Shown here: positions 15,329-33,111 of the stretch, piece after piece
Numbering within the stretch: the stretch's first letter is position 1
How the letters are laid out: each line of letters opens with the position of its first letter
NCBI GenBank assembly: GCA_024280335.1
Contig: JAJRQI010000026.1
Location: 1-33,402, forward strand
DNA from: Deltaproteobacteria bacterium
Lineage (GTDB): Bacteria; Desulfobacterota; Desulfuromonadia; Desulfuromonadales; Geopsychrobacteraceae
Length of the DNA stretch: 33,402 nucleotides
Direction: 5' to 3'
Program-made: the position numbers and the translations under genes
Notes under the pieces: generated by a model
Database searches by the model: none
Told to the model about the DNA's origin: nothing
Seen by the model: the letters and a program-made list of their open reading frames with translations, nothing else

Positions 15329-16009
15329 TCAGTCCTCTCTGATGGCAAAGGGAAAGAGAAGATAGCCGGCCGTAGTGAAAATTATGCAAAAGGCGGCCAT
15401 CGGTTCAAGTTGCTCAAGCACGATCGCAAACGGCTTTGCCGCCAGCGCTGCGGTGGTCGCTTTGACTGCCAGAACGGTCAGCGGCAGAATCAGCGGGAAG
15501 AGCAGGATCGGCAGCAGCACTTCGTTTCTACGCGTCCCGGCGGAGATCGCCGAGATCAGGGTGCCGGTAGTAGAAAAACCAAGATTGACCAACAACAGAA
15601 TCGGCAGCAGGCTCAATGGAGCAAAGCTCAGCTGAGCCCCGAACAGCACGTAGAAGACCGGCACCAGAACCAACTCCGAAAGGCACATCAGGGTAAAATT
15701 GACCAGTGCCTTGGCAGCGTAGATCTCCCCGGCACTGATCGGACTGATCAGCAGGGCGGCAACACAGCCGTTCTCCTTCTCGCGAGCGAAAACCCGGCCG
15801 AGGCCGAGCACCGAGGAGAAGATGATCGCCACCCAGAGAATCCCCGCGCCGTTTTCGGCAGCGACCTGTTTGCCGATACCGCTGGCGATATTCAGCATCA
15901 CCAGAATCAGCGCGCCGAAAAATGCCATCGAGACCAGCGATTCCTTCTTGCGCAGCTCGATCCGCAGATCCTTGCCGAGCAGAAACTGGACCTGCCGCAG
16001 GCTGCTCAT
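15329..16009 (-). CDS. ccmB: CcmB, heme export ABC permease
   Basis: A 226-residue permease with six membrane helices, close to the usual length of about 220. The start VQFLLGKDLRIELRKKE and the stretch FAREKENGCVAALLISPISAGEIYAAK are characteristic. With CcmA it drives release of holo-CcmE from CcmC. Its ATG overlaps the ccmA stop (ATGA). Confidence 0.93.
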   Translation of the reverse strand: MSSLRQVQFLLGKDLRIELRKKESLVSMAFFGALILVMLNIASGIGKQVAAENGAGILWVAIIFSSVLGLGRVFAREKENGCVAALLISPISAGEIYAAKALVNFTLMCLSELVLVPVFYVLFGAQLSFAPLSLLPILLLVNLGFSTTGTLISAISAGTRRNEVLLPILLFPLILPLTVLAVKATTAALAAKPFAIVLEQLEPMAAFCIIFTTAGYLLFPFAIRED

Positions 16010-16725
16010 AGCGCCTCCAGATGGCGAAAATAGAGCTGTTCAAAAGTGCTTGGATCAACAGCTTCTTTCTGCTGCAGATAGACCAGCTTGCCGCGGGCCA
16101 GGATTCCCAGTCGAGTGGCCGATTCCATCCCCCGGCGCAGGTTGTGGGTGACCATAATGATGGTCCGCTTGCGATCGTGCAGGATCTGCAGTTGCTCACG
16201 CAACACGCTGGCGGCATGCTCATCCAGACCGGTGTAGGGTTCGTCAAGTAGCAGCAGCGCCGGGTCGTTGACCAGGGCGCGGGCGATCGTCAGGCGCTGC
16301 TGCATCCCGCGCGAAAGGTTGGCCGCCGGCATATCGTAACGGTCGGCCAGATTGACCTGCTCAAGCAGTTGCAGGGCGCGCTGCCGGGGTTGCTCGACGC
16401 CGTAAAGAGCGGCGTAAAATTCCAGATTTTCCAGCACCGTCAGATCCTGGTAGACAAACGACTGGTGCGAGACCATACCGAGCCGACTGCGGTACTGTTC
16501 CGGTTGTTCTTTCAGATCATACCCCTGCACCCTGACCTGTCCGGCGTTCGGTCGCAGCAGGGTGGCGATAATTTTCAGCAGGGTCGACTTGCCGGCACCG
16601 TTGGGACCGAACAGGCAGAGAAATTCGCCGCGCTGCAGGTCAAGGTCGATCCCGCGCAGCGCCACACGACTGCCGTACGATTTGCACAGCCCACTGATGC
16701 TGAGAAAGGGAGAGTTTTCGCTCAC
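16006..16725 (-). CDS. ccmA: CcmA, heme export ABC ATPase
   Basis: A 239-residue ATPase with Walker A GPNGAGKST, signature LSRGMQQRL and Walker B LLLLDEPYTGLD, plus the late switch His in IMVTHNLRRG. CcmA powers the CcmABCD complex. The frame is open further upstream, but that part lies over the preceding gene. The GTG at 16725 (VSENSPFLSISGL) is the likely start, seven bases after the preceding stop, with GAGGAGGG upstream. Confidence 0.92.
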   Translation of the reverse strand: MSENSPFLSISGLCKSYGSRVALRGIDLDLQRGEFLCLFGPNGAGKSTLLKIIATLLRPNAGQVRVQGYDLKEQPEQYRSRLGMVSHQSFVYQDLTVLENLEFYAALYGVEQPRQRALQLLEQVNLADRYDMPAANLSRGMQQRLTIARALVNDPALLLLDEPYTGLDEHAASVLREQLQILHDRKRTIIMVTHNLRRGMESATRLGILARGKLVYLQQKEAVDPSTFEQLYFRHLEAL

Positions 16726-16732
16726 GACAGAA

Positions 16733-17026
16733 TCAACCCTCTTCTTCCTCGCGCAGACGCTTTTCGGCCTCAATCGCCTCGGCGACCTTGAGGCTGTAAA
16801 GGGTTCGCAACTCCTCATGATCATCGGCGCTGATCTTGTCGGTGGCCAGATCAAAATCGATATCCTTGATCGCTTTGAGATTGTGTTTTTTCTCCTGCTG
16901 CAGAACATCGATGCGCACCTGATGGAGATCCACCCGCTGACTCAAGAGAGCAGCCGGACGAAACATCGGCCGCAGGGTGTAAGCCAGCAGCAGCGCACTG
17001 ACGACCAATATAATGACTATTTCCAT
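16733..17026 (-). CDS. CcmI N-terminal-like membrane protein
   Basis: A 97-residue protein with one membrane helix (IVIILVVSALLLAYTL) and a charged helical tail (LQQEKKHNLKAIKDIDFD ... DDHEELRTLYSLKVAEA). This helix plus short coiled coil is the layout of the N-terminal part of CcmI, which elsewhere is fused to a periplasmic TPR domain. The TPR parts here are separate genes further down the operon, so CcmI seems to be split. The homology is judged by pattern only. It lies between ccmH and ccmA. Confidence 0.65.
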   Translation of the reverse strand: MEIVIILVVSALLLAYTLRPMFRPAALLSQRVDLHQVRIDVLQQEKKHNLKAIKDIDFDLATDKISADDHEELRTLYSLKVAEAIEAEKRLREEEEG

Positions 17027-23099: not shown

Positions 23100-24242
23100 T
23101 CAAATCCCGGACCCCTCACTCAACAGCTGAAGATAAGCGCTGTATTGATAGCGCTTGCCCCGTTGTTTGCCGGAAACTTCCTTGAGAATGCCGATGGTTT
23201 CAAGTTGACCGACGATCTTCGCGGCCGTTGGATAGGACATGGAAAAGTGCCCGGCGACCTCATTGACCGAGACGTAGGGGGTATAAAAAAGCCGTTCCAG
23301 GACCCCGACAGCATGAGGAGAGGATATTTTTTTCTGCCAGAGCAGATCTCGGTGTTTGTTCTGTAATTCCAGTATATTCTTGGCCATTGCCACAGCCGCA
23401 TCCGCGGTGGTCAGCACGCCTTGCAGAAAGAACTTGATCCACTGTTCATAGTCGCCACTCTCTCTGGCCAGACTTAAACGGTCATAATATTCCTGCCGGT
23501 TCTTTTTGAAGTAGTAGCTCAGGTACAATAACGGCTTCTCCATCACTCTCTGCCAATGCAGGTAAAAGGTAATCAGCAGCCGCCCCAAACGACCATTACC
23601 ATCAAGAAACGGATGGATCGTTTCAAACTGGTAATGGATCAAGGCGCAATTAATCAGTACCGGCAAGGTCTGCGGACGATGAAGATAGAGTTCCAGCTCA
23701 CCAAGGGTCTTTCCCAACTCATGCGGCGGCGGCGGAACAAAGGTTGCGTTTTTCAGGGTACTGCCTGCCGGGCCGATCCAGTTCTGCGATTTTCGAAACT
23801 CTCCCGGAGTTTTGTTGCCACCACGCACCCCCGCCAGCAACAGCTCATGAATTTCACGGATCAGACGCAGGCTCATGGGGAATTCACGCAGCCGCTCCAG
23901 CCCATAGTTCAGTGCCTTGATATAGTTGACAACCTCTTCGACATCGTTAATGTTTTCCGGTGTGTCGCCCAACTCTGCGGCAAACAGATTTTCGAGTGAA
24001 GCCTGAGTGCCTTCAATCTGCGAGCTGAGCAGAGCTTCCTTTTTTACGTACATGGCAATAAACAGGTTGGCATTCGGCAGAACATGGCCAAGGCCATCAA
24101 GCCGGGCCAAGGCCATATCGGCCCGTGAGAGGAGGGTTTGCAGCTCTCCCTCAAGAGCAATCGGGGGGGCGGGCGGCAAAGGGGCCGGAATAAAAGCTTG
24201 ATAGTCACTTGCCTGTGAGATATAGGTTCCGCTTCTACTCAT
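23100..24242 (-). CDS. Fic-domain protein with inhibitory motif and C-terminal winged helix
   Basis: A 380-residue protein. The active motif HPFLDGNGRLGR (210-221) is the complete FIC signature, which transfers AMP or another nucleotide to protein hydroxyls. The N-terminal SSQIEG (73-78) fits the class II inhibitory motif [S/T]xxxE[G/N], whose Glu blocks ATP binding. The last ~80 residues form a winged helix (GHFSMSYPTAAKIVGQLETIGIL). The ATG at 24242 has AAGG upstream. Three operator-like repeats precede the gene, and the winged helix may bind them. Targets are unknown. Confidence 0.9.
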   Translation of the reverse strand: MSRSGTYISQASDYQAFIPAPLPPAPPIALEGELQTLLSRADMALARLDGLGHVLPNANLFIAMYVKKEALLSSQIEGTQASLENLFAAELGDTPENINDVEEVVNYIKALNYGLERLREFPMSLRLIREIHELLLAGVRGGNKTPGEFRKSQNWIGPAGSTLKNATFVPPPPHELGKTLGELELYLHRPQTLPVLINCALIHYQFETIHPFLDGNGRLGRLLITFYLHWQRVMEKPLLYLSYYFKKNRQEYYDRLSLARESGDYEQWIKFFLQGVLTTADAAVAMAKNILELQNKHRDLLWQKKISSPHAVGVLERLFYTPYVSVNEVAGHFSMSYPTAAKIVGQLETIGILKEVSGKQRGKRYQYSAYLQLLSEGSGI

Positions 24243-24252
24243 AATATGTACC

Positions 24253-24357
24253 TTATTCAAAGAATTTTTAATAAGGTACTCTTTTTTCGCGAGTTATTCA
24301 ACAAACCTTTAATAACACGCATTCTGCACTGCCCTTTATTCAAGGAAACTTTAACAA
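24253..24357. promoter_or_regulatory. Three phased operator-like repeats upstream of fic
   Basis: TTATTCAA-N7-TTAAYAA occurs three times: 24253-24274, 24294-24315 and 24336-24357. Starts are 41 and 42 bases apart, about four DNA turns, so all sites face the same side. Each copy is itself a near-palindrome (TTATT...AATAA), and copy 1 is flanked by CC/GG to give CCTTATT...AATAAGG. Copy 1 covers the ribosome site of the Fic gene. This looks like a cooperative repressor array. Confidence 0.65.
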
Positions 24358-24643
24358 CGGCGCAGCACGAGAGTTCTAAATGCGGGTGATGTTCATTCAT
24401 TTCTCAGATTGATAGTTGCCGAGGCCGCTCCGCGACCGAGTTGTTTCATGCGATATTTCGCAGTATTCGCGGCTGCAATCACCGATAGGTTATTTATTCA
24501 TAGAAATATCTACATACCCACACATTGTTGGTGCTTTTACTTTCATTCCCGATATTTTTTTTGCTATAGTGTGTACCGCTTGCATTTCGCCACAAGTATG
24601 CTTTTCTATCTAAATCAACCAGAGGAAAAGGAGGATGGGCTTG

Positions 24644-24883
24644 ATGATTCAGGTGATCTATAGGGACGGAAAAGAGGATCTGGTCACACAGAAGTTTCTG
24701 GATATTCTGCTGCATGTCGATGAAGTACAGATGTTCCAAAGAAACAGTGACTGGGCAATCGTCGGCGTAGACCCGGTTCGGACTGACAGCCGAGCCAATT
24801 CCCGAGGGGATGAGCGTCGTCTGCATCAGCAGACGAACCTGCCGCCGCTGCAGGTTCAGCAGCTGCTGCGAGCTTGCTGCTGA
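24644..24883 (+). CDS. Small conserved protein of unknown function
   Basis: A 79-residue protein starting MIQVIYRDGKEDLVTQKFLDILLHVDEVQMF and containing DWAIVGVDPVRT (given here in part). The fold looks like a small beta-alpha-beta module, with a Gln-rich polar tail ending ACC. I associate this pattern with short proteins of Geobacter-type bacteria but cannot name a function. The ATG at 24644 is chosen because AAGGAGG lies nine bases before it; the ATG at 24635 touches that site. A terminator follows at once, so it is a single-gene unit. In the 285 bases before it I see nothing further. Confidence 0.65.
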   Translation: MIQVIYRDGKEDLVTQKFLDILLHVDEVQMFQRNSDWAIVGVDPVRTDSRANSRGDERRLHQQTNLPPLQVQQLLRACC

Positions 24884-32834: not shown

Positions 32835-33111
32835 GTCATCCTCGCGCATGCGGGGATTCAGATAAAAATCACCAGTCTGAACACGTTTGATCTCCGTCAT
32901 CCTCGCGCATGCGGGGATCCAGTGACTTGGCCTCTGATTTATGTGGAGACTGGTGCGTCATCCTCGCGCATGCGGGGATCCAGTGTTCTCTCCGACCCGC
33001 GTTGCAGCGTACGTGGCCGTGCGTCATCCTCGCGCATGCGGGGATCCAGTGACTTGGCCTCTGATTTATGTGGAGACTGGTGCGTCATCGTCGCGCATGC
33101 GGGGATCAAGT
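32835..33111. repeat. Five-unit palindromic repeat array, 61-bp period
   Basis: A 27-28-base hairpin unit starting GTCATCCTCGCGCATGCGGGG and ending ATCCAG begins at 32835, 32896, 32957, 33023 and 33084, that is steps of 61, 61, 66 and 61. The first and last units carry point changes. The stretch after units 2 and 4 is identical, so 61-bp blocks were duplicated. The same hairpin family occurs singly at 13771-13842 and at 33126-33152. No cas gene is in the window. I therefore call this a REP-type array rather than a CRISPR. The region 32723-32834 holds nothing visible. Confidence 0.75.

Follow-up and report, generated by a model that had tools for sequence, protein, structure and literature searches.

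Introduction

Some autoregulated toxin-antitoxin operons have multiple operators, and the toxic module uses these repeats to regulate the promoter from which it is expressed. For Fic proteins, autorepression has already been published: CccR of Yersinia pseudotuberculosis represses its own promoter via palindromic sites (PMC9755527). Here we analysed a fic gene with a C-terminal winged helix and the three palindromes upstream of it in a Deltaproteobacteria bacterium (assembly GCA_024280335.1, genome 3.59 Mb); the whole stretch under analysis, positions 1-33,402 of the forward strand of contig JAJRQI010000026.1, is called the window. Sequence comparison makes it probable that the palindromes are cis-operators through which the winged helix of Fic would repress its own gene, and that array and helix evolve as one module.

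Three described systems are closest to this locus. CccR needs to be a dimer, its site consists of two 10-bp arms at a distance of 26 bp with a 46-nucleotide footprint, and its DNA-reading helices are 70 angstrom apart (PMC9755527). CbFic2 of Coxiella burnetii binds DNA by its C-terminal winged helix, which alters both AMPylation and deAMPylation, and its authors stated in 2023 that DNA binding of SoFic had not been shown until then (PMC10628234). Leaky expression of E. coli SoFic has been reported to be toxic. Toxicity of EcSofic depends on its C-terminal domain, whose position differs between apo EcSofic and ATP-bound SoFic, and how SoFic is silenced before infection and then activated was named an open question in the 2025 SoFic paper (PMC12249575). 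Searches of a library of open-licence papers listed none on phased operator arrays or on DNA binding by SoFic, which does not prove that there are none.

Operator array at the fic locus

The original prediction had described three copies of TTATTCAA-N7-TTAAYAA at steps of 41-42 bp, and exact matching confirmed all three upstream of fic, with steps of 41 and 42 bp; no other zero-mismatch match exists in the whole genome. On the fic strand the half-sites alternate in direction (TTATTAAA, 6 bp, TTGAATAA, 19-20 bp, then again), and the copies are imperfect palindromes with 16/22, 14/22 and 14/22 self-complementary positions. In the 250-bp region, a 22-mer and its two best other copies agreed at 36/44 positions in sum, a value that none of 1000 dinucleotide shuffles reached (mean 26.4, maximum 31). 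When the window was scanned in 250-bp stretches with 125-bp steps, a higher score (44/44) was seen only near 32.9 kb, at a 61-bp tandem repeat (32895-33111, 3.5 copies, 74% matches). The significance of the fic array comes from its longer gapped palindrome and the fixed step, not from an 8-mer statistic. The first copy had also been placed on the ribosome site of fic, which held in part, as operator 1 does overlap the AAGG at 24251-24254 but meets it at its outer edge only.

Searching both strands of the genome with up to two mismatches gave 15 matches, among them all three operators and the reverse readings of two of these, compared with 19 for the reversed pattern, so there was no excess that would indicate a wider regulon. 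The one-mismatch match on contig 51 falls within a ribosomal-protein gene and that on contig 12 within an unrelated open frame, and the idea of a wider regulon was dropped. Between 24180 and 24700, neither sigma-70-like promoters (shuffles give 1.4) nor terminators (shuffles give 0.5) were found. The search for RNA families in Rfam returned one sub-threshold match only (24150-24245, 24 bits with a cut-off of 36, E=0.0099), which covers the start of the fic coding region and not the operators.

Spacing of the arrays in homologues

We gathered homologues within the order and phylum as well as across many phyla, the latter from genomes sampled one per species (best 80 of 421 relatives kept); the loci numbered 199 (L008-L206). 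Four had no match or start and five had too little upstream sequence or a doubtful start, leaving 190 usable loci, from which 113 representatives with less than 75% identity to each other formed the main set. In the 180 bp upstream of each, a repeat was a 9-mer recurring at 8/9 positions or more, and loci were counted per offset. Peaks appeared at 40 bp (24 loci), 41 bp (33), 30 bp (12), 50 bp (9) and 51 bp (11); 20 shuffles of the set gave about 2 loci per offset and never more than 8. These peaks were absent 380-560 bp upstream (73 loci) and in a coding stretch (113 loci), where peaks at 18 and 21 bp appeared instead, the pattern expected of conserved protein sequence. An earlier autocorrelation with 106 loci (69 representatives) had identical peaks.

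Repeats at the in-phase offsets (30, 31, 40, 41, 50 and 51 bp) were present in 69/113 loci, with 10.5 expected from shuffles, and repeats at out-of-phase offsets (35, 36, 45, 46, 55 and 56 bp, a set picked afterwards) in 8/113. The in-phase share was 25/38 at 50% or more identity to the window protein, 27/42 at 45-50%, 10/19 at 40-45% and 7/14 below 40%. The in-phase offsets had been picked from this same set, and only a second set from viral contigs is a true test of them: the best 80 of 171 were kept, 79 were usable and 37 were independent, with less than 75% identity to all earlier loci and to each other. With the offsets fixed beforehand, 25/37 were in phase (200 shuffle runs: mean 3.3, maximum 9) and 1/37 out of phase, with peaks at 31, 41 and 51 bp. 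As a further control, the intergenic upstream regions of neighbouring open reading frames (ORFs) from both sets gave 10/151 in phase and 16/151 out of phase.

Peak means of the two sets together were 30.6, 40.6, 51.1, 61.8, 71.3, 81.4 and 91.9 bp, which corresponds to 10.15-10.29 bp per turn. A zero-phase fit was best at a period of 10.19 bp (bootstrap over loci 10.14-10.24, an interval somewhat too narrow because loci share ancestry), and 10.5 was excluded. Of the arrays, 53 had z > 2 and at least three sites; in these, the last site ends a median of 16 bp before the start codon. The spacing by full helical turns that had been read from the window alone is thus strongly supported as a rule of the SoFic-like family (named below). 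Conservation of the repeat itself upstream of close homologues, also expected, was found in part: the nearest homologue found (L118, 69%) keeps the TTGAAT core and the 41-bp step, but most others keep the geometry only, and L041 (61%) has no array.

Among six named plasmid loci, three were in phase (L337, L339 and L340), although the motif of L339 (z of 0.5) hinges on which start codon is taken. Sinorhizobium meliloti 1021 pSymA has CTAATTAA twice at 41 bp, which is weak; the Microvirga ossetica plasmid locus has CTTRTTATC at 82 and 41 bp; and Picosynechococcus PCC 7002 has TAACGAAA sites 51 bp apart. No in-phase step was found at the plasmid loci of Synechocystis PCC 6803, Phyllobacterium and Agrobacterium. 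The neighbours of the fic genes on Synechocystis pSYSX (L338) and Picosynechococcus pAQ6 (L337) are type I restriction and toxin-antitoxin genes, in keeping with a defence role.

Repeats were also looked for upstream of further Fic genes. Four canonical SoFic-type genes (L207, L343, L344 and L345; n = 4 only) have CGACAT-like arrays with steps of 10, 30, 40 and 51 bp among others. As a negative control, nine loci of mob_myst_B Fic proteins, which have no winged helix, showed no offset common to two or more loci, a sample too small for a decision. DUF4172-type Fic genes (L210-L227 and L319-L336, including L219 on contig 71 of the window's own genome) have repeated half-sites, e.g., TGCGGAGA or GAAGCGAT, at 34 bp in 10/27 representatives (shuffles 0.2) and a 55-bp offset in 4/27. 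Because 34 bp does not correspond to full 10.2-bp turns, this other Fic architecture seems to follow a different spacing.

Co-variation of half-sites and recognition helix

The half-site letters vary widely: TTGAATAA in the window becomes CTTGAATA in the 69% homologue and GAATAACG, TAAGCAAC, TTGACTTA, CGATAATA, TATCTACG or GAAATAAG in others. We compared 52 loci (1326 pairs) by scoring the motif of one locus in the upstream region of another. The generic 8-mer motif search behind the z > 2 rule overlooks weak arrays and was passed by 60/113 representatives; the window locus was retained although it lies below the rule (z=1.8). Standardised slopes for the cross-locus score were 0.47 for seven recognition-helix positions, 0.14 for the rest of the winged helix and 0.06 for the Fic core. 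The partial Mantel correlation was r=0.362 (p=0.0005), and the maximum of 2000 permutations was 0.127. A score of z > 3 was found for 75% of the 16 pairs with more than 65% helix identity and for 0% of the 310 pairs with zero helix identity. When all columns were scanned with no positions preselected, 338 (r=0.301) and 337 (0.266) came out on top, above the maximum of 300 permutations (0.246), followed by column 89 (0.244), which is outside the winged helix, and column 341 (0.182), just under the 95% level of 0.184. The pairing can be read directly, as helices with YPN, YGN or YAN go with CGATAATA, NPNALAL with TATCTACG, YNT(V/I)S with GAAATAAG, and FQ or YQ with TTGAATA- or GTGAATA-like sites.

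Nine genomes carry two or three paralogues, several of which have no clear array. Where distant paralogues both have arrays, the sites differ (CTAATTAA vs TATTTTAG in G306, CCATATTA vs TTAAATTA in G128), and near-identical paralogues carry near-identical sites (G045). A single host factor would not produce such a paralogue-specific pattern within one genome. The original prediction had named Fic, with its C-terminal winged helix, as the possible ligand of the array, and the helix co-variation together with the differing paralogue sites strongly supports this. The window's own genome has at least three Fic genes with C-terminal extensions (contigs 32, 36 and 71, that of the window among them). 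The one on contig 36 is a 36-38% homologue with G-rich inverted repeats upstream and no in-phase step, and the one on contig 71 is a separate gene of the DUF4172 type.

The Fic protein and its neighbourhood

The window protein has the Pfam domains Fic_N (PF13784) and Fic (73.5 bits). Its motif HPFLDGNGRLGR agrees with the HxFx(D/E)GNGR catalytic motif of class II Fic AMP transferases, and S73 and E77 of its inhibitory motif are invariant in 54 sequences. By these motifs it is a class II Fic AMP transferase, with AMP transfer as the predicted activity. The AlphaFold model, built with 54 sequences, has a mean predicted local distance difference test (pLDDT) score of 90.6, with values above 90 in most blocks of the winged helix, and the closest solved folds in Foldseek were 7cb8 (Mycobacterium marinum Fic) and the SoFic structures 3eqx, 3zec and 3zcn. 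The PADLOC SoFic profile matched over its full length (E=1.8e-120, profile 5-360 of 361) and also matched 54/54 aligned relatives at 1e-20, but the stricter NCBIfam SoFic equivalog NF046030 stayed below its cut-off (168.3 bits vs 550), so we use the name SoFic-like. The protein thus belongs to a family that is linked to phage defence, and it may protect against phage. The coordinates of all these features are given in Table 1.

Table 1 Features of the fic gene and its upstream array in the window
Feature	Position	Strand	Remark
fic, 380 aa, class II Fic with C-terminal winged helix	23100..24242	-	ATG start at 24242
Winged helix, residues 309-375	23118..23318	-	AlphaFold model
Recognition helix, residues 337-349; 337 and 338 co-vary best with the operator	23196..23234	-	AlphaFold model and co-variation
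Catalytic motif HPFLDGNGRLGR, residues 210-221	23580..23615	-	Position computed from start codon
Inhibitory motif SSQIEG, residues 73-78	24009..24026	-	Position computed from start codon
AAGG, likely fic ribosome site	24251..24254	-	Read from sequence
Operator 1, imperfect palindrome	24253..24274	.	Outer edge overlaps fic ribosome site
Operator 2	24294..24315	.	41 bp from operator 1
Operator 3	24336..24357	.	42 bp from operator 2

Beyond the array, the nearest gene (24635-24883) runs away from it, codes for a small protein of the GSU3473 family and starts about 277 bp from the array. A 300-amino-acid protein at 16006-16908 has partial PADLOC matches to mad3, mad8 and AriA (best 5.7e-26) and may be an ordinary ATPase.

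Discussion

With the sites, their family-wide phasing and their co-variation with the recognition helix established here, the Fic protein itself is likely the ligand of the array, and autorepression is the most likely outcome of binding. Fic subunits, probably as dimers, would occupy the half-sites, which alternate in orientation and share one face of the DNA; the filled sites would follow one another at four-turn intervals (about 41 bp) as far as the ribosome site, and fic would be repressed. The alternation of 14 and 27 bp would fit two arrangements. Either a dimer sits on each palindrome and neighbours touch, or a dimer bridges the outer pair and neighbours meet on the palindrome, which recalls the arms and the helix distance given for CccR. 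Steps of three, four and five turns are all found, so the tether of the winged helix must allow some movement. Binding may be cooperative, as had been proposed, and a coupling of enzyme activity to DNA binding, with feedback between binding and AMPylation, is possible by analogy with the published work on EcSofic and CbFic2. The interpretation of the original prediction as a whole is partly supported.

Several observations weigh against autorepression by Fic. The window locus is AT-rich and reached only z=1.8 with the generic 8-mer statistic; 44/113 homologues have no in-phase repeat at the threshold used, some of them with visible arrays (L043, L061) and others without any; and only 3/6 named plasmid loci are in phase, with none in L338, L341 and L342. 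The correlation of column 89 is a sign of leftover shared ancestry in the co-variation analysis. Finally, as no sigma-70-like promoter was recognised, repression is indistinguishable from activation by promoter position.

This last point speaks for the possibility that the array activates fic and Fic is its own activator. We consider activation improbable, since the sites reach the ribosome site, an unlikely place for an activator to work, and the known relative CccR is a repressor. It is likewise improbable that another host regulator controls fic through the sites. Unlinked regulators do govern many genes, and binding by Fic is something we infer, but across phyla the letters of the sites change with the recognition helix of the Fic protein linked to them, distant fic paralogues in one genome differ in their sites, and the motif has no excess elsewhere in its own genome. 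RNA hairpins in the leader are very improbable, although all three copies are inverted repeats shortly upstream of the start codon and a sub-threshold Rfam match lies close by: that match sits over the coding start, off the operators, and hairpins would neither require 10.2-bp phasing between copies nor track the recognition helix of a protein. Chance repetition in AT-rich DNA, which the low 8-mer score of this locus might suggest, can practically be dismissed given that no shuffle reached the observed repeat and that the geometry recurs in most relatives examined and in the separate viral set.

A further reading, which we hold to be rather unlikely, goes beyond autorepression: SoFic-like enzymes might line one face of their promoter in a regular assembly, a DNA-held store of silenced toxin that is released on infection. 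The operators drift in letters and stay locked to the 10.2-bp lattice, which would suit wrapping or twisting of the DNA by the protein. Free DNA has about 10.5 bp per turn, so a 10.2-bp lattice would be slightly overwound. A change of nucleotide state during phage infection would move the C-terminal domain, so that DNA and enzyme would be released together, which would raise activity and synthesis in one step.

If Fic does hold its own gene silent through the array, there would be a testable answer to how SoFic-like enzymes stay silent before infection, the target sites could be read from many genomes, and the C-terminal domain that was found essential for toxicity (PMC12249575) would also be the repressor domain of the family. 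The paired recognition helices and half-sites are also a data set on how a winged helix chooses DNA letters.

In comparison with known systems, the window protein shares with SoFic of E. coli H397 the two-domain layout and the PADLOC match. It differs in that no AS1-like antitoxin gene was recognised downstream of fic, where there are only same-strand ORFs of 31 and 34 amino acids. In the available text of the SoFic paper, the terms winged and helix-turn-helix (HTH) are not used and the C-terminal domain is given no DNA-binding role (PMC12249575). CbFic2 has a DUF4172 N-terminus; no specific site is known for it, random DNA was used and host histones were proposed as the target (PMC10628234). 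The window protein has Fic_N instead of the DUF4172 domain (PF13776) of the CbFic2 type, which also sets it apart from the CccR relatives, grouped with DUF4172 Fic proteins by the CbFic2 authors (PMC10628234). Like CccR, it has a C-terminal winged helix, by its model, and palindromic sites in its own promoter region, but the accessible description of CccR reports no multi-copy phased array, whereas the window locus has three copies. Compared with toxin-antitoxin operons, the DNA-binding domain and the enzyme of the window locus are one polypeptide.
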